From positions 1 through 46,276 of the IMG/VR virus record IMGVR_UViG_3300009159_005417: a stretch of 46,276 bases of DNA; one strand, 5' to 3'. The notes beneath the pieces were generated by a model that did not search any database, had not been told where the DNA came from, and saw only the letters and a program-made list of their open reading frames with translations. The stretch's first letter is position 1, and each line of letters begins with the position of its first letter. Shown piece by piece: positions 10,801-26,952 of the stretch. The position numbers and the translations under genes were made by a program. The DNA comes from a virus.

Positions 10801-11404
10801 CATAATCATAACCAAATAATTTATAAAACCCTTGATAGAAACCACCATATAACTTATGGTATTTACCAACATTAGGTTCTACGGTGCTTTCAATTTCATA
10901 TAAAGTATTTTTAGGTATTCCTGAAAATCTATTATATTGTGAAGTATATCCCGTAACTTGGAACATTTTCATTCTTCTATCAAAATAAGTTCTTTGAAAT
11001 TTTTCTGTTTGATTAAATAATCCATTAGTAAATGTGATTGTTTGACCAACTAAAGATGTTACTAAACCATTATCCATTCCAACTAAACCTATGTCACAAG
11101 CACTCTGAGCACTAAAACAAGTAAGATCTAAATTATCTGGATTATAATAGTTTTCAGAAACAACTAAATTTCTATAATCATATTGACCATATGTAAGTGT
11201 TAAATTTTGTGTTGTGTTTGAACTATTAAGGTCATAATAAACAGGTAATCTATTTCCATATGTTTGGGCAATAAGGTATGGTGAGAATACAACCTCTTGA
11301 TTGTAATCTACCTCATCAGAAGATATTGACATATCTGACGCATCTAAAGCAAAACTTATTTTTAGTTTTGGGTATGCGTACTGATTAATGTTCTGTTGTG
11401 CCAT
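7814..11404 (-). CDS. Large multidomain virion protein: lectin-like, Cys-rich, Pro-Thr and von Willebrand A parts
   Basis: This is a 1196-residue protein. The N-terminal region (to about 660) contains a concanavalin/LamG-like fold suggested by GWSVEMVLKPR and later RLKIYVNGKPFFTIENF and EGGISQFRMYVDPLT. A very Cys-rich insertion of about 170 residues (roughly 262-440) with a short PT run interrupts it. Residues about 759-935 are the same YTMTFSSPVNN sandwich module found in stalk proteins A and C. After another PT linker, a C-terminal von Willebrand A domain (about 960-1196) has a MIDAS-like DYTGSMG and an LIILITDAPPSGDDD segment. vWA domains bind ligands through a divalent metal. A surface adhesin or tail/baseplate protein is the likely role. 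It starts the minus-strand cluster and diverges from the gene at 11455. Confidence 0.75.
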   Translation of the reverse strand: MAQQNINQYAYPKLKISFALDASDMSISSDEVDYNQEVVFSPYLIAQTYGNRLPVYYDLNSSNTTQNLTLTYGQYDYRNLVVSENYYNPDNLDLTCFSAQSACDIGLVGMDNGLVTSLVGQTITFTNGLFNQTEKFQRTYFDRRMKMFQVTGYTSQYNRFSGIPKNTLYEIESTVEPNVGKYHKLYGGFYQGFYKLFGYDYEALPERTNKGWSVEMVLKPRIINDRIPSLGNTTLNEIYPENKNTFFYLGTRAENKFYHHADGHPKCFTGYTRVTSGLTDCLVTCACCNKGVTNSRCIFVYPPRSVDGIHDYHINYGCDVCKEQKRYCGCDCGEEPCGTCGWECKTHPCALITGVTPTPMPIVPLLCKPCQPTPTPTPTPTPSPVYCEVTPTCDAPCPDCDTCDECIDCITCATTGYTSIEDTCEKDPLWDSLSNAFSVKFSGDPKNPKICVKVLRFTGDCVTTGSCATTGITQMTGYTIDTYCSPNGIYDYCLTRCDSFFDLEKWMLIDVVWRRYTWLDTCDLQWRGGLGDITELKYLDSLVNDTTKLIKPPYTHENCSIDPEQIELVKLNQKWLNDLEYRMGRLKIYVNGKPFFTIENFEEVIPRALDTDKERQIGVPFNMSWGGGTQGLHENLIFSSCTLPYTDYIQDPELFPENVLSGTTFAGMRTNILLEQNFGGTFEGGISQFRMYVDPLTAPEIKHNFKILKDKFSMFDPDCPDCNPIECKTNDFKFPVCDIDYEIIPGSTPSPTPTPTSNTCCVVNYEAPLPNSSVIINGITITGSGTGRITPFSTSVPVAATCETNLITYTNTVELGDDSPPYTGPTNFIYTMTFSSPVNNLLIHLIDYTTPETFTITTNTANPSIVPCDGCCYNITNNLITVGPPGTGCRNLSPSKFGGSGQFTIAAATSYTTVTISGPGGGGGTLLKICDLNFTTPTPTPTLTPTPTPTIGTVPEVPGDPAACTDGMDVVFLLDYTGSMGGGINSIKSSIISIVNTIQTESNNNYRLGLVTFDEYPGPGVYGYGSNFEYTSLPISQRKINTGSSGIYQWITAWEKMGTNNIATFTTQLNKLNGIVPLGSGSGQPEPSDMGVDLISTNNYLGYEYIAGTFRPGVSKLIILITDAPPSGDDDVYNSTDVTFINGLIPQLFAQNIRVLLMTSYTTSTALNTLATGTNGSVTIGFNPTSIITAIQNICP

Positions 11405-11413
11405 CTTTTTTTA

Positions 11414-11441
11414 AATAAATACCACAAATGAAGTATTTATT
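11414..11441. promoter_or_regulatory. Divergent promoter region with perfect 9-bp inverted repeat
   Basis: AATAAATAC at 11414-11422 and GTATTTATT at 11433-11441 are exact reverse complements, separated by 10 bases. Each arm places TATTTATT on the sense strand, 9 bases before the ATG at 11404 (minus) and 13 bases before the ATG at 11455 (plus). This fits back-to-back late promoters, or one operator shared by both directions. Confidence 0.5.
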
Positions 11442-11454
11442 GTAAAAAATACTT

Positions 11455-12414
11455 ATGATGAGTAAAATTAGTGAAGGACTTAAAAAATATAAAAATGCTG
11501 CAACTAGTGAGGCAAAAGAAACTAGATTGTTAGTAAAAATATTAATGTCTGCAGCAAAAGAATATAAAAAAGATAGAAAGTTTAAATTAGACACTGAAGA
11601 AGTTCAATTTATTAAAGATCAATCTCAAGACATTTTAAAATTAATTCCTTTAATTGTACTTCAAATATTACCTGGTTCTATGATCGCAACACCATTTATT
11701 ATTGAATTAAGTAAAAAATTAGGAATTAAGTTAAATAGTAAAATACCCAAAAAACATCAAGAAGAAAAAAATGATGGTGAAATATCAGAACTTGTTAATG
11801 CTGATGGGTCAATGGTTGGAAAAAGTACACCAATACTTCAGTTAGACATGCACCCAAGAAAAACAATGGACCAAACTGTTGTTGCAACAAGACAAACAAA
11901 TAATCCAATGGTTAGAGGATACCGAACTTACTACGGTGAATCTGAAGAAAAGGATGATGAAAAAATATTAGACGAGTATAATTTGAAACCTACGTTTGCT
12001 TATGATGAAACAGAAGATGTTTCAACATATGACGAAGCAGATGAGGTATTAGTTGATTTAGGAATAGAAGATCCTTTTGAAAGACACGAAAGATTGGAAA
12101 CATTGGGGTTTGATCCTCAATTGGACAAACAATTAAAACAAGAAAAGAAAAGAGGTGAATGTAAAAATTGTTTTACCAAAAGAAGATTGTCGGAATTAGA
12201 AAACCAAAAAATGGTTAGAATGATTGATGAAATATTATTGGGTAAAAAATCTAATTCAAATGAAGTTGTTAAAAAAACTAAAGAAGAAGATGAAGATGAG
12301 AAATCACCAATTAGTAAAATATTAATGAGAAATATTGAATCAATTAAAAAAATAGCAGAAAGAGAAGGATTATCATTAAATAAATTAATCAAACATTTTA
12401 AAGAAAGTGAATAA
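11455..12414 (+). CDS. Phage protein with LETM1-like hydrophobic segment
   Basis: This 319-residue protein is charged apart from residues about 61-92, where DILKLIPLIVLQILPGSM leads to an IELSKKLGIKL stretch. That hydrophobic, proline-punctuated pattern resembles LETM1-family segments, but the resemblance is weak. The middle is acidic (DEYNLKPTFAYDETEDVSTYDEADEVLVDLG). Near residue 237 a GECKNCFTKRRL motif gives a CxxC pair, and the C terminus is a basic/acidic helix. Two ATGs in tandem open the frame; the first is taken, 13 bases after a TATTTATT motif. It leads a run of five closely packed plus-strand genes and may be a virion or assembly protein; the function is unknown. Confidence 0.65.
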   Translation: MMSKISEGLKKYKNAATSEAKETRLLVKILMSAAKEYKKDRKFKLDTEEVQFIKDQSQDILKLIPLIVLQILPGSMIATPFIIELSKKLGIKLNSKIPKKHQEEKNDGEISELVNADGSMVGKSTPILQLDMHPRKTMDQTVVATRQTNNPMVRGYRTYYGESEEKDDEKILDEYNLKPTFAYDETEDVSTYDEADEVLVDLGIEDPFERHERLETLGFDPQLDKQLKQEKKRGECKNCFTKRRLSELENQKMVRMIDEILLGKKSNSNEVVKKTKEEDEDEKSPISKILMRNIESIKKIAEREGLSLNKLIKHFKESE

Positions 12415-12874
12415 GGAGCTATACGATAAAGTAATACCATTACCAAAAGAATTGGTGGAGTACTTACAGCAATGTTTTGATCAAGTCCCAAACTCGGATG
12501 CTTCCGTTGAGGGTCACAAAAGAAATGAATTTTTGCGTGATAAAAAACAAGCAACCTTTCAACAATTAGAAAGAATTGAAAATTGGTTTAAATATTATGA
12601 TGGTCAAAAAGAATCCGCACCATATATATTAAACGGTAGTGATTACATGAGAAGTTGGGTGACTCAAACTATTGATGGTTTAAGAAGAGGAACAACGACA
12701 CCTGAAATAGTAAATGATGTTATGCCTGATGATGTTAATGATGATCTTGTTGATGATATGGGATGGTTATCAAATATGAATAGAGACGTTAAATCACATA
12801 AAGATGTGAATGATGATATAAAAATAACAGAAACCTTAAAAAGGATAAACGACATAATGAAAAAAATAATTTAA
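12407..12874 (+). CDS. Conserved-looking phage protein, unknown function
   Basis: This 155-residue frame begins at a GTG (12407) and overlaps the end of the previous gene by 8 bases, which suggests translational coupling. Composition is ordinary for a soluble protein, with a helical middle (QLERIENWFKYYDG, YMRSWVTQTIDGLRRG) and a Lys/Asp-rich C-terminal helix. No motif was recognised. There is no in-frame ATG near the 5' end, so the GTG start is favoured. Placement between a possible membrane-associated protein and small virion-like genes suggests a structural or assembly role. Confidence 0.6.
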   Translation: MNKELYDKVIPLPKELVEYLQQCFDQVPNSDASVEGHKRNEFLRDKKQATFQQLERIENWFKYYDGQKESAPYILNGSDYMRSWVTQTIDGLRRGTTTPEIVNDVMPDDVNDDLVDDMGWLSNMNRDVKSHKDVNDDIKITETLKRINDIMKKII

Positions 12875-12875
12875 T

Positions 12876-13163
12876 ATGCCAGTTACAGAACCACTTAATT
12901 TTAATCAACCCGACAATGAGTTATCTCAAATTGCGGTACAACAAAGATCTAAATTATTCCCAAAGAATGATTATAAAGATACTAATAAATATTCTGTCAC
13001 AAATCCTGACGCAATTTCCGATGGAGATGATGCGGGTAAAGGAACTGGAATATTTTTAGATACAGCTAATGGAGGATCTTCAATTGATATTCTTGAAAGA
13101 AAGAACGAAATTAAAATAAATGAATATCAACCAAATAAGCCTTATACGACACCATCGGCATAA
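12876..13163 (+). CDS. Small phage protein, unknown function
   Basis: A 95-residue polar protein with few hydrophobic residues and many Asn, Asp, Lys and Pro, starting MPVTEPLNFNQPDNEL. It is probably largely extended or disordered. It starts one base after the previous stop, and its last base is the first base of the next ATG (TAATG), so the block is translationally linked. Not recognised. Confidence 0.6.
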   Translation: MPVTEPLNFNQPDNELSQIAVQQRSKLFPKNDYKDTNKYSVTNPDAISDGDDAGKGTGIFLDTANGGSSIDILERKNEIKINEYQPNKPYTTPSA

Positions 13164-13816
13164 TGAAACTTTACAATACTTTAAAAGATGTTATTCTTGA
13201 GGTAGTCGCCGTTAATTCAGTTACAGACACAATTAAAAAGAAACAAAAAATTGTGATGTACTATGATGGTGACGAACCAGGGGGTAAAGGTTTGCGTTTA
13301 ATTGAACCAGTATGTTTTGGGTATAGTAAGTCGGATAATCCGGTATTAAGAGCTTGGGATTTAGAAGGAGCTTCTCATACCGCTTACAATGGAGAACAAC
13401 CTTTACCTGGTTGGAGATTATTTCGATTGGATAAAGTACTAACCTATAAACCATCGGGAGAAAATTTTACCTCACCAAGACCTGGATATAACCCTAAGGG
13501 TGATAAAAGTATGAATAGAGTTATTATTAACTCTGTTTTTGACCAAAATGAGGAAGAAACAATTGAAAGTTCTATTAATGATATTGTAACAGACGTGGTT
13601 AATTCAATGATAAACGGAATAATTCAAAAAAATGGTGTGGATTATTTAACTAACATTGATTTATCAAAAGCTGCAGAATCATATAAACAAATTTATCAAG
13701 AGTTGGAAAAAAGATTAAATAGAAAATTAAGTACTGAAGATAAAGATAACTTTAGACAACAAATACAAAATTTAATCCAACAATCACAAAGTCTAATAAT
13801 AAATAATTTAAAATAA
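13163..13816 (+). CDS. WYL-like domain protein
   Basis: Residues about 28-97 of 217 resemble a WYL (Sm-like barrel) domain. The pattern is KIVMYYDG, then GLRLIEPVCFGYS, then VLRAWDLEGASH, then WRLFRLDKVLTY, matching the family order of I.Y..., r.ieP, lraw and FRLDRI. WYL domains bind nucleic acids or nucleotides and act as ligand sensors in bacterial regulators and some defence systems. No N-terminal HTH is present, unlike the usual regulators. The C-terminal 90 residues are helical and polar. It could be a phage regulator or a virion protein that reused the fold. The assignment is by pattern only. Confidence 0.5.
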   Translation: MKLYNTLKDVILEVVAVNSVTDTIKKKQKIVMYYDGDEPGGKGLRLIEPVCFGYSKSDNPVLRAWDLEGASHTAYNGEQPLPGWRLFRLDKVLTYKPSGENFTSPRPGYNPKGDKSMNRVIINSVFDQNEEETIESSINDIVTDVVNSMINGIIQKNGVDYLTNIDLSKAAESYKQIYQELEKRLNRKLSTEDKDNFRQQIQNLIQQSQSLIINNLK

Positions 13817-13817
13817 A

Positions 13818-14408
13818 ATGGGATCTGAACAAGAACTAATCGAAAAATTAATGATTTCCAAAAAAATTATGGACAAACATAATAATATGGGTAGAGGTCA
13901 ATCACAAGGAAATGACCTAACAAGTCCTATGGTGGAAGAATTTACACCAATAAAAGGACAATACAATTTACCACAAGAATTTTTATCTGAAGAAAGTGCA
14001 ATACCAAGACAAACTAACAACGAATTACCAACATCCGAAAGAATACTCAATTCAAGATTACCAGATGAAATAAAAAGATTAATGATGGAACACCCAATAC
14101 AACAACCAACTATGGGTACATCTACAGGTTCTGTATTATCTAACGAATTGATTGAGAAAGCAACAAGATTGATGAATAATACACCAAAGGGAGAAACAAA
14201 TAAACAACAACACCCACAACAAAAAATTAATGAAAGTGTTTCTAATTCTAATTTAAAAGATATTATCAGAGAAACAATGGAAGATGTTTTAAAAGAAAAT
14301 GGGTTATTGGTTGAGTCAGAAACAAGCAGTAATGATTTATTTAAGTTTAGAGTTGGTGAACATATTTTTGAAGGTAAAATTTTAAGAGTTAAAAAAGTAA
14401 GTAAGTAA
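13818..14408 (+). CDS. Phage protein, unknown function
   Basis: This 196-residue protein starts one base after the previous stop. The N-terminal two thirds are low-complexity and Gln/Asn/Pro-rich. Residues about 146-196 are ordered: an amphipathic helix (LKDIIRETMEDVLKENGLL) and a beta segment (LFKFRVGEHIFEGKILRVKKV). The helix resembles C-terminal helices seen in other phage proteins of this window. It is the last gene before a strong terminator. No family is recognised. Confidence 0.6.
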   Translation: MGSEQELIEKLMISKKIMDKHNNMGRGQSQGNDLTSPMVEEFTPIKGQYNLPQEFLSEESAIPRQTNNELPTSERILNSRLPDEIKRLMMEHPIQQPTMGTSTGSVLSNELIEKATRLMNNTPKGETNKQQHPQQKINESVSNSNLKDIIRETMEDVLKENGLLVESETSSNDLFKFRVGEHIFEGKILRVKKVSK

Positions 14409-14426
14409 CCAATATTTTAATTTATT

Positions 14427-14458
14427 AACCCCCATTCTTATTTAGTTTGGGGTTTTTT
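14427..14458 (+). terminator. Rho-independent terminator
   Basis: AACCCC at 14427-14432 pairs with GGGGTT at 14449-14454, followed by a T run. It closes the 11455-14408 gene block and isolates the homing endonuclease gene from it. Confidence 0.75.
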
Positions 14459-14513
14459 ATTTTATTGTCTTTACCTTTTGATAAAATAGGACTATTATTA
14501 ATAAAAAAATATT

Positions 14514-15419
14514 ATGGACGATAAGATAGAAAAGAAAATTATACTAGAATATAAAAATGGTAAGAGTAGTATAGACATTGTTAAAATTGTTGGATTATCA
14601 AAACCCACAATCCTTAAAGTTTTGAATAAACATAATCTAATTAGAAAAAGAGACAGGTGCTCAAGTTTAAATATTAAAAAAGATGGTGATAAATATTATG
14701 TTTTAAGAAAATGTCCTTCGTGTGAAAATGAAATTAAAACATATTCAAAGGATAAAGTAATTGCATGTAGAAATCATTTTAATAAAATTAATAATAAATC
14801 TTTGTGTAGAACTTGTATGGGTAAAAATAACATAGGTGAAGGTAATCCATTTTTTGGTAAAAAACATAATAAAGAAAGTATAAAAAAAATATCTAATAGT
14901 AGAACAGGTAAAGGAAAGGGTGAAAATAATTCAATGGCTAACCCAAAGTGGAGAAATAAAGCATCTATTAATTTAAAGAAAAAATGGAATAGTGGTGAAA
15001 TGGAACACGTTAGGAAAATTATGTCTGACACATTAAAGAAAACAAGGTCTTCAGGTAAAATATGTTCGGTGATTAGATCAAAACAAGAAAAAAATATTGT
15101 AACCGAAATAAAAAAATTAGGTTATGATGTAACTCACTCATTAAGAATTGGAACTAAAATATTTGACATATTTATACCTTCATTAAATTTAGTCATAGAA
15201 TATAACGGAGATTATTGGCATTGTAACCCAAATAAGTATGAAAGTGATTATTTTCATGTGGTAAAACAAAAAACCGCACAAGAACTATGGGATTACGACA
15301 AAAATAAAATTGACTTATTAAAAGAATATGATTATAATTTAGAAGTGGTTTGGGAATCCGATTATAAAAAAGATAACACCATAATAAATAAATTAATAAA
15401 AAAATATGACACAAGATAA
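14514..15419 (+). CDS. Free-standing homing endonuclease, Vsr-like nuclease domain
   Basis: This 301-residue protein probably cuts DNA near its own insertion site and spreads by recombination. Residues 1-45 contain a helix-turn-helix (SIDIVKIVGLSKPTILKVLNKH). Cys 67, 70, 85, 98 and 101 suggest a zinc-binding region. Residues 107-150 contain NUMOD3-like DNA-binding repeats (GEGNPFFGKKH, GENNSMANPKW). Residues 189-301 form a PD-(D/E)xK/Vsr-type domain, with D218, E229, D233 and H236 in FDIFIP...LVIEYNGDYWH. The gene lies just after a terminator, with a TACCTTTTG box near 14470 that may be its promoter. Its last 14 bases overlap the start of the glycosyltransferase gene, a typical insertion position for such elements. 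The family is clear; activity is inferred. Confidence 0.85.
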   Translation: MDDKIEKKIILEYKNGKSSIDIVKIVGLSKPTILKVLNKHNLIRKRDRCSSLNIKKDGDKYYVLRKCPSCENEIKTYSKDKVIACRNHFNKINNKSLCRTCMGKNNIGEGNPFFGKKHNKESIKKISNSRTGKGKGENNSMANPKWRNKASINLKKKWNSGEMEHVRKIMSDTLKKTRSSGKICSVIRSKQEKNIVTEIKKLGYDVTHSLRIGTKIFDIFIPSLNLVIEYNGDYWHCNPNKYESDYFHVVKQKTAQELWDYDKNKIDLLKEYDYNLEVVWESDYKKDNTIINKLIKKYDTR

Positions 15420-16653
15420 CCCCTTGAATGGCCGTGAAAGAATCAGAGTATTGGTTCTTCCAAGTGACCGTTCGGGGGTTGGCTGAGGTAAATTTAGATC
15501 AGTTGACCCCCACATTATGTTACAAAATATGTACCCTGATGATTTTCACGTAGATATTGATTACGAACCAAAAATTAACGATATAAATTATTGGAAAAAA
15601 TATCAGATTGTACACGTACATAGAAATATTGGACAAACTTATGAGGAAACTCCTAAGATTATTGAATGGTTAAAGTTAAATGGTATCGTTGTGATTGTTG
15701 ATATTGATGATTATTGGTTACCGACAAAAGAGCATCCTATTCATCAATTAATTATACAAAATCAAATTCATAAAAAAATTGTTGATAATTTAAAAGTTGC
15801 ATCATATGTAACAACAACAACCAAAATATTTGCTGACGAGATTAGAAAATTTAATAAAAACGTAGAAGTTTTTGCAAACGCAATTAATCCTAAAGATCCT
15901 CAGTTTAATGAGCCAACACTACCCTCAAATAAAATTAGAGTGGGTTGGTTAGGAGGTTCATCACATCTACACGATTTAAGATTAATGAATGGTTTTATAT
16001 CAAAACTAAGTCCACTACAGGATAAACTACAATATTTTATTTGTGGTTTTGATATAAGGGGGTCTGTTACTGAAATTAATAAAGAAACTGGAGAACAAAA
16101 ACAAAGACCAATCAAACCTGAGGAAACTGTTTGGGCGAGATATGAAGAAATCTTTACTGACAACTATAAAATTGTTACTCCAAAATACAAAGAATTTTTA
16201 AGTAAGTTTGAGGAAAAAGAATTTTTTGGTTGGGAGAATGAAAACTATGTTAGAGTTTGGACAAAACCTGTAACAACATATGCAAAAAATTATTCTAAAT
16301 TTGATATTTCATTGGCTCCAATTCAGAATCACATTTTTAATAGAATGAAATCTCAATTAAAAGTTATTGAAGCTGGATTTTATAAAAAAGCGTTAATTGC
16401 TTCAAATGTTGGTTCTTACACAATTGATTTAAAACATGCCTTACACCAAGGTCAATTTACTGATGGAAATGCGTTGTTAGTAAACGACTCCAATAATCAC
16501 AGTGATTGGGCTAAAAATATTAAAAAATTAGTTGAGAATCCAAATATGATTGTTGATTTAGGTGAAAGACTTTATGAAACAGTTAAAGACAGATATGATC
16601 TTAATAATGTAACAAAAGAAAGAGCAGAATTTTACAAATCCTTAATTAAATAA
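15406..16653 (+). CDS. GT-B glycosyltransferase with an in-frame TGA at codon 27
   Basis: Read from the ATG at 15406, the frame is 415 codons with one internal TGA at 15484-15486. The first residues, RIRVLVLPSDRSGVG, look like the first beta strand and glycine loop of a GT-B glycosyltransferase, and the frame continues with KFRSVDPHI after the stop. So the upstream part is real coding sequence, not leader. Later motifs include IVVIVDIDDYWLP, IRVGWLGGSSHLHDL and KVIEAGFYKKALIASNVG, as in GT1/GT4-type enzymes. Starting at the internal ATG 15517 would give 378 residues lacking the N-terminal strand. The homing endonuclease gene overlaps its start, and it is first in the sugar operon. Readthrough, ribosome bypassing, sequence error or inactivation are all possible. 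Confidence 0.7.
15474..15511 (+). promoter_or_regulatory. Hairpin enclosing the in-frame TGA of the glycosyltransferase
   Basis: GGGGGTTGGCTGA (15474-15486) can pair with TCAGTTGACCCCC (15499-15511) over 13 bp with three G-U wobbles, leaving a 12-base loop. The TGA forms the loop-proximal end of the 5' arm. The segment is G-rich for this genome. AACCCC at 15418-15423 could compete for the same G run. A canonical bacterial SECIS is not apparent. A role in recoding is inference. Confidence 0.5.
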
Positions 16654-17376: not shown

Positions 17377-17975
17377 TGGATAAAAATAAGGTTAGTGAGT
17401 TTGAGGATATGATGAAACGAGTTAGTTCTCTTGAATCATCATTTGATGATGAGGAATTTGATTATAATCTTATTATTGAAGAGTTTGGATTGGACATTGA
17501 AGAATTAGAAAGAACAATGGAATCTATGCAACCAACAATTAAAGTTGGATATCGTAAATCTTCGGATCATGCAATTGAACCATCTTATTCATATCCAACA
17601 GATTCAGGAATGGATTTATTTTCAACTGAAACAATTACCATTAAATCTTTTGGTCGAGAACTAATCCCAACGGGAATTCATTTTGATATTCCCGAAAATT
17701 ATGAAATACAAGTTAGGTCAAAAAGCGGATTAGCAATTAATCAAGGACTAATGGTTTTGAATTCTCCGGGTACAATAGATCAAGGGTATACGGGAGAAAT
17801 TAAAGTTATTATTTTTAACACAACAAATGGTGAAGTTATTATTGAAAAAGGACAAAAAATTGCTCAAGCGGTAATGACTCCAGTTGTTTGTGGTAAATGG
17901 ATTCAATTAGTTAAGGTTAATGATATATCAAATAAAGATAGAGAACATAATGGTTTTGGTAGTACTGGCATATGA
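17376..17975 (+). CDS. dut: dUTPase (deoxyuridine 5'-triphosphate nucleotidohydrolase)
   Basis: It hydrolyses dUTP to dUMP and pyrophosphate, keeping uracil out of phage DNA and supplying dTMP synthesis. All five trimeric-dUTPase motifs are visible: DSGMDL, RSKSGLA, the GTIDQGYTGEI strand with the catalytic region, GQKIAQ and the C-terminal GFGSTG arm. The protein is 199 residues against about 140-150 for the usual core. The extra 50 N-terminal residues are acidic (EEFDYNLIIEEFGLDIEELE) with no known domain. The stop TGA is followed at once by TAA, and the next gene starts 4 bases inside (ATGA overlap). Confidence 0.93.
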   Translation: MDKNKVSEFEDMMKRVSSLESSFDDEEFDYNLIIEEFGLDIEELERTMESMQPTIKVGYRKSSDHAIEPSYSYPTDSGMDLFSTETITIKSFGRELIPTGIHFDIPENYEIQVRSKSGLAINQGLMVLNSPGTIDQGYTGEIKVIIFNTTNGEVIIEKGQKIAQAVMTPVVCGKWIQLVKVNDISNKDREHNGFGSTGI

Positions 17976-19480
17976 TAACAATAATTTATTCAACACATAA
18001 AGACGAAATATATAATAACAAATTTAAACAACATTTGTTACAAACGGTTGGACTTAAAGATGTTCAAGTATTAGAATATGTTAATCATAATCAATATTCA
18101 CTTTCACATGTTTATAACAACGGAGTAATAGAATCAATTTATGATGTTGTTGTTTGTTGTCATAACGACATTAAACTTGAGAAAAATTGGGGTAAAAAAT
18201 TATTGGAGGATTTTTCTAATAACCCCGAATTCGGTATAATTGGAAAAGCCGGGTCTTGTTATTTCCCTGAGTCAGGTGTTTATTGGGAAAGAATGAATTT
18301 AACTATGGTTGGTCAAGTTTATCACCATCCCGAAGGACAGAAAAAATGGATTAATAGATATTCACCTAAATTACCTTTTTTAATACCGGTTGTAACCATA
18401 GATGGTTTATTCCTCTCGTTTGATAAAACAAAAATTAAACATGCGTTTGATGAAACAATTGGTAAGTTTCACTTCTACGATCATTTATTCTGTGTTCCAA
18501 ATTATTTAGATGGAGTTAAAATTGGAGTTACCTCATCATTTGAAATTACTCACGAATCTGTGGGAAGACCAAATCAAGAATTTTGGGAAAGTAAAGAAAA
18601 GTTTATTGAGAAGTGGGGGTCTAATTTACCTTTAGATTTAAAACCAGAGTACCCATATGTTCCAATTATAAAAACAAAGCCAATAAAGAATGTTGGTAAA
18701 GTTGCAGTTATTATCCCAACTAAAGGAAATTTAGAGTTATTGTTTAACTGTGTTGATTCATTATATGAACATTGTGATAAAAATATGTTTGATGTTTTTA
18801 TTGCCGATACAGGATCTACTGATGAAGAAAAAAACAAAATTAAGGAAAAATATTTAAATTATAATATTAATTTAATAGAGTATGATTATTATAATTTTGC
18901 AAAAATTAATAATGACGTTGTTAAAAACCATATTGGTAAAGATTATGAATTTTTATTATTTTGTAATAACGATATAAAGATTTTAAATAATGTTATACAT
19001 GAAATGGTTAGGATCTTAAAATTAAATACTAAAGTTGGAATTGTTGGGTCACGATTACATTATGAAGATAATACATTACAACACTCCGGAATCTTTATTT
19101 ACCTCAACCAAATCGATAAAACTATAAATGTAACCCATAATAATTCAAATTCATATTTCAATTACGTAGTTGAAAATAATGAAGTTGCTGGAAATACAGC
19201 GGCCTTAATGATGACACGTAAAGATTTGTTTATAAATATTGGAATGTTTAATGAGTTATATGACTATTGTTGGGAGGATGTTGAATTAAATCTAAAATGT
19301 ATTTTAAAAGGATATATTAATATTATATCAGGTAAATCAGTGGCATTTCATTATGAATCAAAAACAAGAAACATTGATAAAGAAAATACTGAAATAACTT
19401 CCCAATATTTCAATATATTAATACCATTTATTCAAAAAAATGTTGATAAATTAAAAAAATATTTTTTTATTAAACAATAA
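17972..19480 (+). CDS. Two-domain GT2-type glycosyltransferase
   Basis: This 502-residue protein carries two glycosyltransferase-like halves. Residues 1-230 start MITIIYSTHKDE and include a VVVCCHNDIKLEKNWG segment and TIDGLFLSFDK, as in family 2-like domains. Residues about 240-480 are a second GT2 domain: VAVIIPTKGNLELLFNCVDSL, ADTGSTDEEKN, a LLFCNNDIKIL metal-binding loop, AGNTAALMMTRKDLF and a CWEDVELNLKCI acceptor-site segment. This matches O-antigen or capsule chain-building transferases that use nucleotide sugars on the cytoplasmic side. Overlap with dut and the 2-base gap to the next gene indicate one operon. Confidence 0.85.
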   Translation: MITIIYSTHKDEIYNNKFKQHLLQTVGLKDVQVLEYVNHNQYSLSHVYNNGVIESIYDVVVCCHNDIKLEKNWGKKLLEDFSNNPEFGIIGKAGSCYFPESGVYWERMNLTMVGQVYHHPEGQKKWINRYSPKLPFLIPVVTIDGLFLSFDKTKIKHAFDETIGKFHFYDHLFCVPNYLDGVKIGVTSSFEITHESVGRPNQEFWESKEKFIEKWGSNLPLDLKPEYPYVPIIKTKPIKNVGKVAVIIPTKGNLELLFNCVDSLYEHCDKNMFDVFIADTGSTDEEKNKIKEKYLNYNINLIEYDYYNFAKINNDVVKNHIGKDYEFLLFCNNDIKILNNVIHEMVRILKLNTKVGIVGSRLHYEDNTLQHSGIFIYLNQIDKTINVTHNNSNSYFNYVVENNEVAGNTAALMMTRKDLFINIGMFNELYDYCWEDVELNLKCILKGYINIISGKSVAFHYESKTRNIDKENTEITSQYFNILIPFIQKNVDKLKKYFFIKQ

Positions 19481-20677: not shown

Positions 20678-21466
20678 ATGAATTTTATAACAACAAATCA
20701 TAGGGGTGGTATTGGTAATGTAATGTTTAAACTTGCGGCATCAATTAGTATGTCAATTGATAATGAGGTTAATTATGTTTTTTCTAAAGAATTTATAAGA
20801 CCTATCGATCCTGATTATAAAAATTACGGAGATAACCTACTAAGAAATATTAATTTTATTGATAGGTTACCACAAAATTATTTTGTTCATACTGAAACCC
20901 AATTTAATTACCAAGAAATAAAATACAATCAAGGAATTAATTTATTATTAGATGGATACTTTCAGAGTGAAAAATATTTTATAAATAATAAACAAAGTAT
21001 TATAGATATTTTTAAACCAACGGAAGAAATTAAAAATGAGATATTAAAAAGTTTATCTGAAGTTAATAATTATGTTTCTATACATATTAGAAGAGGTGAT
21101 TATTTAAAATACCCGAATCATCACCCACAACAATCTGAAGAATATTATAAAGAGGCAGCAAAAATTATTGGTATAAATAATACTTTTTTAATTTTTAGCG
21201 ATGATTTAGAGGGGATTAAAAATATGTTTGATTATTTACCCAATAAAATATTCTATACTTCGGGTAAAGATTGGTTAGATTTATATACGATGAGTTTATG
21301 TAAAGATAATATAATTTGTAATAGCACATTTAGTTGGTGGGCAGCATATTTAAATCCAAATAAAGACAAGAAAGTAATAACAACAAATAAATGGTTTGGA
21401 CCTGCAAATGCTCATCTTAACACATCAACTTTATTCCCATCGGAATGGATAATCCTTAATAAATAA
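20678..21466 (+). CDS. GT11-type alpha-1,2-fucosyltransferase
   Basis: This 262-residue protein has the GT11 hallmarks. Near the N terminus is GGIGNVMFKLAASIS, at 136-142 the GDP-fucose-binding HIRRGDY, then FLIFSDDLEGIKNMF and a C-terminal NSTFSWWAAYL with KVITTNKWFGP. These enzymes move L-fucose from GDP-fucose to galactose or related acceptors. Gmd, encoded about 4.5 kb downstream in the same operon, makes the intermediate needed for GDP-fucose. The reductase step (fcl) is not in this window. Length is slightly below typical (about 290). Confidence 0.88.
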   Translation: MNFITTNHRGGIGNVMFKLAASISMSIDNEVNYVFSKEFIRPIDPDYKNYGDNLLRNINFIDRLPQNYFVHTETQFNYQEIKYNQGINLLLDGYFQSEKYFINNKQSIIDIFKPTEEIKNEILKSLSEVNNYVSIHIRRGDYLKYPNHHPQQSEEYYKEAAKIIGINNTFLIFSDDLEGIKNMFDYLPNKIFYTSGKDWLDLYTMSLCKDNIICNSTFSWWAAYLNPNKDKKVITTNKWFGPANAHLNTSTLFPSEWIILNK

Positions 21467-25974: not shown

Positions 25975-26952
25975 ATGAAAAAAGCATTTATCACAGGTAT
26001 AAACGGACAAGACGGATCTTATTTGTCGGAATACTTATTAGACTTAGGATATGAAGTTCATGGTATCATTCGTAGAAATTCAGTCCCTGAAAACCAACAA
26101 AGTAGATTAACAGATGAAATTAGAAATAAATTACATATATACTATGGTGACCTTTTGGATCAAGGTAGTTTAGAAAGATTAATGAGTGATATACAACCAG
26201 ATGAAATATATAATTTAGCAGCTCAAAGTCACGTTAGAATTAGTTATGATATTCCACAATTTACCGTTCAAACAAATGCTATCGGGGTCATTAACATTTT
26301 AGAAGCATATAGAAGATCTTGTCCAAATTCAAGATTTTATCAAGCGAGTTCATCAGAAATGTTTGGTAGTTCAGTTGATGACGATGGGTTCCAAAGAGAA
26401 ACTACAATTATGAACCCTGTGTCACCATATGGTTGTTCAAAAGTGTTTGGATATAATATTGTAAGAAACTACAGAAAGGCATATAAATTACATGCGTCAA
26501 ATGGTATTTTATTTAACCATGAATCACCAAGAAGAGGGTCAAATTTTGTTACAAATAAAGTTGTTAAAACTGCGGTTGAAATTAAACTTGGATTAAATCA
26601 TAAATTAGTTTTAGGTAATTTAGATTCTTATCGTGACTGGGGTCACTCAAAAGATTATGTTAAAGCAATGCATTTAATTATAAATAACGATGTCCCTGAT
26701 GACTTTGTTGTTTCAACAATGGTTACACATTCAGTAAGAGATATGGTTGAGTATGTATTCGAAAAATTAGATTTAGATTATACAAAATATATAAGTCGGG
26801 ATCAAAAATTTATAAGACCTGAAGAATTAGATTATTTAAAAGGAGACTCAACAAAAATTAGAACCCAATTGGGTTGGGAACCTGAGTATACATTTGAAAC
26901 AATGTTAGATGAAATGATTAAATTTTGGTTAGAATATTATGGAAAAAAATAA
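25975..26952 (+). CDS. gmd: GDP-mannose 4,6-dehydratase
   Basis: This 325-residue SDR enzyme converts GDP-D-mannose to GDP-4-keto-6-deoxy-D-mannose using NADP(H). It shows the nucleotide-binding ITGINGQDGSYLSEYLLDLG, IIRRNS, a DQGSLERLM strand, the PDEIYNLAAQSHVRISYD block typical of Gmd, catalytic SPYGCSKVFGYNIVRNYR (the YxxxK) and NHESPRRGSNFVTNKV. The C-terminal substrate region has VGDSTK-like KGDSTKIRTQLGWEPEYTFE. Length matches slightly short Gmd proteins. The gene is central to the operon's deoxysugar supply. It overlaps the next gene by 14 bases. Confidence 0.95.
   Translation: MKKAFITGINGQDGSYLSEYLLDLGYEVHGIIRRNSVPENQQSRLTDEIRNKLHIYYGDLLDQGSLERLMSDIQPDEIYNLAAQSHVRISYDIPQFTVQTNAIGVINILEAYRRSCPNSRFYQASSSEMFGSSVDDDGFQRETTIMNPVSPYGCSKVFGYNIVRNYRKAYKLHASNGILFNHESPRRGSNFVTNKVVKTAVEIKLGLNHKLVLGNLDSYRDWGHSKDYVKAMHLIINNDVPDDFVVSTMVTHSVRDMVEYVFEKLDLDYTKYISRDQKFIRPEELDYLKGDSTKIRTQLGWEPEYTFETMLDEMIKFWLEYYGKK

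Follow-up and report, generated by a model that had tools for sequence, protein, structure and literature searches.

The glycosyltransferase gene described here carries a stop codon at codon 27 and is very probably expressed by programmed translational bypassing, carried by a mobile homing endonuclease cassette. The case is built on what can be read from sequences, namely the stop codon, the spacing of the site, matched codons, frame changes, a covarying stem-loop, purifying selection, mobility and the insertion site. These strongly indicate that ribosomes would hop over the stop codon between matching codons, aided by a conserved RNA hairpin. As part of the same reading, and held with the same high confidence, the cassette comprises the endonuclease gene plus a rebuilt start of the target glycosyltransferase gene. 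In this rebuilt start a stop codon stands between Gly or Ser codons that match, and the take-off codon is directly preceded by a long 5' stem-loop. The gene was found in the window, which is the whole stretch of 46,276 nucleotides analyzed, derived from a tailed phage with genes for a head maturation protease and for a major head protein of the T4 type (phrog_138). The features of the locus, by position in the window, are:

13818..14408, + strand: gene X, the neighbor flanking the empty site, about 150 nt upstream of the glycosyltransferase gene in cassette-free phages
14467..15503, + strand: mobile cassette, approximate extent, from comparison with the near-identical phage L046
14514..15419, + strand: homing endonuclease gene with a NUMOD3 motif and a PD-(D/E)XK-like domain containing VIEYNGDYWH; the glycosyltransferase gene begins 14 nt before its end
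15406..16653, + strand: glycosyltransferase gene, GT-B fold, interrupted at codon 27; predicted bypass product 26 + 387 residues
15406..15480, + strand: first 25 codons, specific to the cassette (MTQDNPLNGRERIRVLVLPSDRSGV); the 5' stem-loop is encoded in the same stretch
15418..15480, + strand: 5' stem-loop of 63 nt ending at position -1 of the take-off codon, -27.0 kcal/mol, covarying and conserved
15474..15511, + strand: take-off hairpin (13 bp, 15474-15486 with 15499-15511), a subgroup feature
15481..15483, + strand: take-off codon GGC (Gly)
15484..15486, + strand: stop codon TGA, the 3-nt coding gap of the window phage (TAA in other members)
15487..15489, + strand: landing codon GGT (Gly), after which reading would restart at AAA 15490

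The frame from ATG 15406 reads MTQDNPLNGRERIRVLVLPSDRSGVG-stop-GKFRSVDPHIML..., with GGC TGA GGT as codons 26-28 at 15481-15489. Downstream it stays open as far as TAA 16651-16653 and matches the phage glycosyltransferase family phrog_7162 (E 3.5e-42). The initial annotation had reported these three codons, with the TGA as the sole break in a glycosyltransferase-like frame and a homing endonuclease gene directly upstream; all of this was confirmed, and the 3' end of the endonuclease gene overlaps the ATG. GGC is a rare Gly codon in the window (13/869), and AGC is also rare in this phage, accounting for 14 of the 292 AGY Ser codons. The rarity of the take-off codons GGC and AGC may reflect hairpin pairing or slow decoding. 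Other glycosyltransferase-like genes and nucleotide-sugar epimerase genes belong to the same cluster (17972-19480, 20678-21466, and 25975-26952), which suggests that the phage makes or modifies a surface glycan.

A search of IMG/VR with the glycosyltransferase gave 58 loci, and pattern scans, for TGA first and then for TAA, added more. Most of the 58 loci were uninterrupted (...SDxSGVGKFRSVDPH...), while the window and eight loci read ...SGVG*GKFRS.... Two types of site were thereby found among related uncultivated phages: 40 local variants are uninterrupted, and 40 are interrupted by a stop at exactly this codon. The latter, not counting the window, are present on 55 contigs from 53 metagenome samples. 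All 40 distinct uninterrupted homologues have GV[GS] (one has GCG) followed directly by [KRYFH][FYW]R. The spacing expected for related enzymes in the initial annotation (SGVGKFRS) was thus correct, and no homologue was found with two extra residues. When a scan was made that allowed any inserted codon, all 33 glycosyltransferase contigs retrieved had a stop (33/33); the other two matches, L179 and L180, encode an unrelated protein. No sense codon was found inserted at the site among all glycosyltransferase loci collected. The type of stop varies between TGA and TAA, with TAA in 13 of the first 30 variants, and one or the other is located immediately 3' of the take-off codon in every variant. 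A glycosyltransferase search of bacterial and archaeal genomes gave no confirmed match.

The stop codon is not a sequencing error, because it recurs on so many contigs from separate samples. A G-to-A error or a dead gene had been offered as the simpler explanations of the interruption, and any single case does resemble a nonsense mutation. Both are contradicted by the recurrence and by purifying selection. The frames downstream are intact in all interrupted genes, a few of which end at a contig edge, dN/dS between interrupted genes is 0.04-0.14, and the stop persists after loss of the endonuclease. We consider the chance of a dead gene or an assembly error to be practically negligible.

Members with a longer gap or an out-of-frame continuation were found through relatives of the endonuclease, a covariance model of the upstream RNA and a further pattern scan. 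The resulting catalog of 40 variants (39 if the truncated L087 is grouped with L097) contains hops of +5 (1 variant), +6 (31), +7 (2), +8 (4), +9 (1), and +13 (1). Those other than +6 are:

+5: AGT-TG-AGC (L135)
+7: AGC-TGAA-AGC (L144) and AGC-TGAT-AGC (L182)
+8: AGC-TGACA-AGC (L139), AGC-TGAAA-AGT (L185), AGC-TGATA-AGA (L187), and GGC-TAATT-GGT (L200)
+9: AGC-TGACTA-AGC (L129)
+13: GGC-TGAATTTAAA-GGA (L112 and three others)

The rest of the gene is in a different frame in eight variants, and in every catalog variant the hop would restore GV[GS]-[KYFH][FY]R. Take-off and landing codons specify the same amino acid except in L137 (AGT/GGC) and L187 (AGC/AGA), where the two codons differ by one or two nucleotides; those of L137 can be paired with a G-U. 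Relaxed pairing would be required for landings from GGY on GGA (7 variants) and for the AGT/GGC and AGC/AGA pairs, and this counts against bypassing. The match is found at the level of the codon box (GGC/GGT, AGC/AGT, and GGT/GGA), as expected for re-pairing of an anticodon and not for slippage on identical nucleotides. A hop of 6 nt from GGC to GGT had been proposed for the window; it would restore the ancestral protein exactly, but an in-frame hop applies to only some of the members.

The same observations bear on readthrough of the stop by a Trp or other near-cognate tRNA, by a suppressor tRNA, or by selenocysteine insertion with the hairpin as SECIS, any of which would give GVG-X-GKFRS. 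The window taken alone is compatible with this, having a TGA in frame and within a hairpin. Readthrough does not account for TAA at the same site, and in the eight variants that continue in another frame it cannot restore the enzyme; its two extra residues are present in no homologue. No tRNA gene was found in the window, where TGA and TAG also terminate other genes. The TAA members and the out-of-frame continuations exclude, as general explanations, both readthrough as Trp (SGVGWGKFRS), one of the options raised earlier, and selenocysteine. As a class, readthrough is extremely improbable.

The most conserved element of the interrupted loci is the 5' stem-loop, which is present in all 39 full-length variants and in none of the uninterrupted homologues. 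Pairing of the 12 nt before the take-off codon with the cassette-specific leader has a predicted energy of -12.2 to -21.3 kcal/mol in 29/29 interrupted variants, compared to -0.8 to -7.1 kcal/mol for the same helix in 39 uninterrupted homologues, so that the ranges do not overlap. Across interrupted variants the helix ends at position -1 or at most two nucleotides from there. The complete 66 nt fold as one long stem-loop of -23 to -33 kcal/mol. For each of 29 variants it was compared with 300 synonymous recodings, every one of which was less stable; in uninterrupted homologues the energies were no better than -1.4 to -9.5 kcal/mol.

Aligning the leaders by sequence put registers out of alignment, and covariation was therefore judged on a model-based alignment and by an alignment-free comparison of own and cross-member pairing. 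In the latter, leaders form stronger pairing with the take-off strand of their own locus than with strands taken from elsewhere in the family (0/100,000 permutations). In the model-fitted alignment of 39 loci, which leans toward the structure, the covariation score exceeded 500/500 shuffles and all slid controls, and 51 cells were changed on both sides compared to 25.5 in shuffles and at most 24 in slid controls. Examples of compensatory change are ACUCCGG/CCGGAGU in L088 and CUCACCCCAGU/ACUGGGGUGAG in L129. The stem-loop tolerates G-U pairs, an indication that it acts as RNA and not as DNA. The leader is 26-29 codons long, take-off codon included, throughout the full-length cassette loci, and it replaces the ancestral start MxKINVLVLPSD. 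The leaders share a conserved basic stretch before VLV, where constraints on RNA and protein overlap.

A second structure, the 13-bp hairpin that contains the TGA, had been singled out in the initial annotation. It is present at 15474-15486/15499-15511 (-22.6 kcal/mol, z -5.0, 0/200 shuffles as stable) and is real in about a dozen close relatives, the best dozen of the TGA subgroup having z of -3.5 to -7.6. However, it is absent in many other members, which counts against bypassing, and as a key element of the whole family it was rejected; the relevant element there is the long 5' stem-loop, which had been overlooked in the initial annotation. The two structures are mutually exclusive because the GGGGTT strand is common to both.

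A structured RNA with a linked nuclease could also mean that the ribosome never meets the gap, which RNA processing, transcriptional slippage or a programmed DNA change would have taken out of the nucleic acid beforehand; the comparative data say only that the product should be without the gap. Against this, take-off and landing sites match as codons of one tRNA or codon box and not as identical nucleotides, and the stop codon always starts directly after the take-off codon. An Rfam search gave no match, and hence no intron or ribozyme family, and we know of no RNA machinery that excises 5-13 nt in such a setting. Gap removal is very unlikely.

The interrupted genes remain under purifying selection, judging from the substitution patterns. 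For the first 12 codons after landing, pN/pS was 0.16 in interrupted and 0.17 in uninterrupted genes. The uninterrupted enzyme of L046, modeled with AlphaFold (pLDDT 90), matches GT-B glycosyltransferases; in this model the interrupted site falls where the loop that follows strand 1 meets helix 1, and G16 and R21 are invariant. From VLVLPSD onward the predicted bypass product has the layout of the ancestral enzyme and no extra residues. The stop could instead end a short leader peptide, with a shorter glycosyltransferase made from an internal start such as ATG 15517, which the window does contain. Such a start cannot explain the conservation, because the next in-frame ATG is not conserved in position: between loci its distance downstream varies from 8 codons to more than 97. 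The codons that precede it (KFRSVDPH) show purifying selection equal to that in uninterrupted genes, their motif precedes helix 1 of the predicted fold and contains the invariant G16 and R21, and reinitiation would not need matched codons. A split gene is consequently highly improbable.

The endonuclease consists of an N-terminal region, a NUMOD3 motif and a restriction-endonuclease-like C-terminal domain. It gave profile matches to phrog_3339 (homing endonuclease) and phrog_559 (HNH endonuclease), and a search of solved structures gave no useful match. The distance from the end of gene X to the site is about 100-230 nt in uninterrupted loci without the endonuclease and about 1,070-1,110 nt in most cassette loci. 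An endonuclease gene was located directly upstream in 31 of the 39 interrupted loci whose flank was long enough and in 10 of 40 uninterrupted loci (p 1.4e-6); as several routes had led to these loci, the counts represent a convenience sample. Between phage L046 and the window, identity is 98.9% over 11000-14466 (3.5 kb upstream) and 96.5% over 5.3 kb downstream. The site itself is clean in L046, and all that this phage has of an endonuclease is a short remnant akin to the 3' end of the gene. Divergence between the two is concentrated in the cassette, and unbroken identity resumes from GTTGACCCCC (about 15503).

The interrupted state requires 18 changes on the glycosyltransferase tree, at least 11 of them forced by well-supported branches, compared to 3 on the endonuclease tree, the two trees differing in number of tips. 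On these reconstructions the interruption follows the endonuclease tree and not the glycosyltransferase tree. Four lineages (L130-132, L135/136, L139-141, and L144) still have the original gene start, which lies ahead of the endonuclease gene and about 0.9-1.05 kb upstream of the bypass site. These starts have their own ATG and an unbroken GVG-Y, GVS-Y, or GVS-F, and they end one or two codons beyond the take-off position. The endonuclease thus entered the gene where the bypass gap now sits, and it carries a rebuilt 5' end. Judged from sequence, the cassette is inserted one or two codons after the GV(G/S) motif. Weak covariance-model matches upstream of the endonuclease in L130, L135, L139, and L144 were rejected as elements, being remnants of the original gene start.

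Eight variants without an endonuclease gene upstream keep the bypass, and two more (L012 and L032) retain only an endonuclease remnant. Because it is kept after endonuclease loss, the bypass would appear to be functional and hard to lose. In L097 and L075 unrelated genes replace the endonuclease gene between gene X and the site, and the bypass element is retained. Related endonucleases without bypass or stem-loop were found directly upstream of the same gene in L118-L128 (except L123, which has the bypass), L133, L134, L138, L143, and L148-L152. One endonuclease family thus coexists with its target in at least two ways, and loci of this kind count against the bypass cassette reading. For the endonucleases of L153-L178, which do not adjoin this glycosyltransferase gene, no stem-loop element was found. 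The Ser-type clade has an in-frame intein of about 370 aa between GGS and SHL (L129:4896-7271, and the glycosyltransferase genes of L131, L135, L139, and L144), and that of L182 apparently has another at a different site, after NKMK. The glycosyltransferase gene is a hotspot for mobile elements.

For the bypass movement we propose the following, taking T4 gene 60 as the model. The ribosome would stall when GGC occupies the P site and the stop codon the A site, and the peptidyl-tRNA-Gly would dissociate from GGC. The 5' stem-loop would act as a motor, re-zipping as the mRNA exits the channel and pulling about 6 nt of mRNA; as the stem reaches the take-off codon, the mRNA has to advance before the basal pairs of the stem can form. 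The tRNA would then re-pair on GGT 6 nt downstream (5-13 nt in relatives), and decoding would restart at AAA. The presumed benefit is protection from cleavage: the inserted nucleotides would break the endonuclease's own target, so that the cassette could not cut itself and the host gene would remain functional. The position of the insertion point at the bypass site in four lineages is indirectly in line with such protection.

To our knowledge, T4 gene 60 has since 1988 been the only phage gene for which programmed bypassing is well established, and essential features could not be learned by comparison from a single case. The T4 mobA cassette is reportedly the subject of a paper by Bonocora et al. 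from 2011. That the window has a gene 60-like bypass with a linked endonuclease was the central proposal of the initial annotation, and it is supported, as stop type and hop length vary while matched codons and purifying selection persist. Gene 60/mobA and the phage element have in common matched Gly take-off and landing codons with a stop directly after take-off (PMC5009743; PMC11194080), a 5' stem-loop able to refold behind the ribosome, a position near the gene start just downstream of a homing endonuclease gene, and mobility as a cassette. In gene 60 the stem-loop 5' of the take-off site is considered to be the motor, re-zipping as the mRNA leaves the exit channel (PMC5009743; PMC11194080).

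The two systems differ in several respects. The target is a glycosyltransferase here and a topoisomerase in T4, and the endonuclease families are apparently different (NUMOD3 plus a restriction-like domain here, whereas MobA is by description an HNH enzyme). The coding gap is 2-10 nt compared to 50 in gene 60, and the 5' stem-loop is longer and, unlike that of gene 60, directly abuts the take-off codon. Hop length and even the take-off amino acid vary among members, which represent many lineages compared to one for T4. The element is analogous to T4 mobA/gene 60 and probably of independent origin. What differs is the gene, the endonuclease, the RNA anatomy, the gap size and the breadth of distribution; the presumed working mode is the one already known from the T4 gene 60/mobA cassette.

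Other reported hops are described in a 2016 review. Synthetic stop-hops in E. coli (Weiss et al., 1987), in which 9 nt give one amino acid, likewise skip a stop flanked by matched codons but are constructs, and no natural in-frame stop-hop was known to occur according to the same text (PMC5009743). The byp elements of Magnusiomyces capitatus mitochondria are similar in that short blocks are bypassed at many sites, some with imperfect codon matches; they are mitochondrial and apparently independent of mRNA context, whereas the phage element has a covarying stem-loop and a linked endonuclease (PMC5009743). The bypass proposed for the terminase of Streptomyces phage Hau3 also concerns a short coding gap in a phage gene but is centered on a UUA codon, and the passage on it mentions no stop codon or endonuclease cassette (PMC5009743). 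A search of open-access full texts found no description of the phage element.

Altogether, we hold it quite likely that mobile bypass cassettes are widespread in tailed phages. These would be endonucleases equipped with an RNA-encoded hopping device that makes hops of 5-13 nt from a changeable take-off amino acid, keeps the invaded gene functional while destroying the target and can outlive the endonuclease itself, and they would include the first natural stop-hops. About 40 natural variants are now available that differ in gap length, frame, stop and take-off amino acid and have in common one compact stem-loop ending at -1. The stem-loop motor model and the codon re-pairing rule can thus be tested on short, simple constructs. 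Gene finders will call such genes truncated, and more may therefore be hidden. The linkage between bypassing and homing endonucleases is suggested to be a recurring solution and not an oddity of T4.
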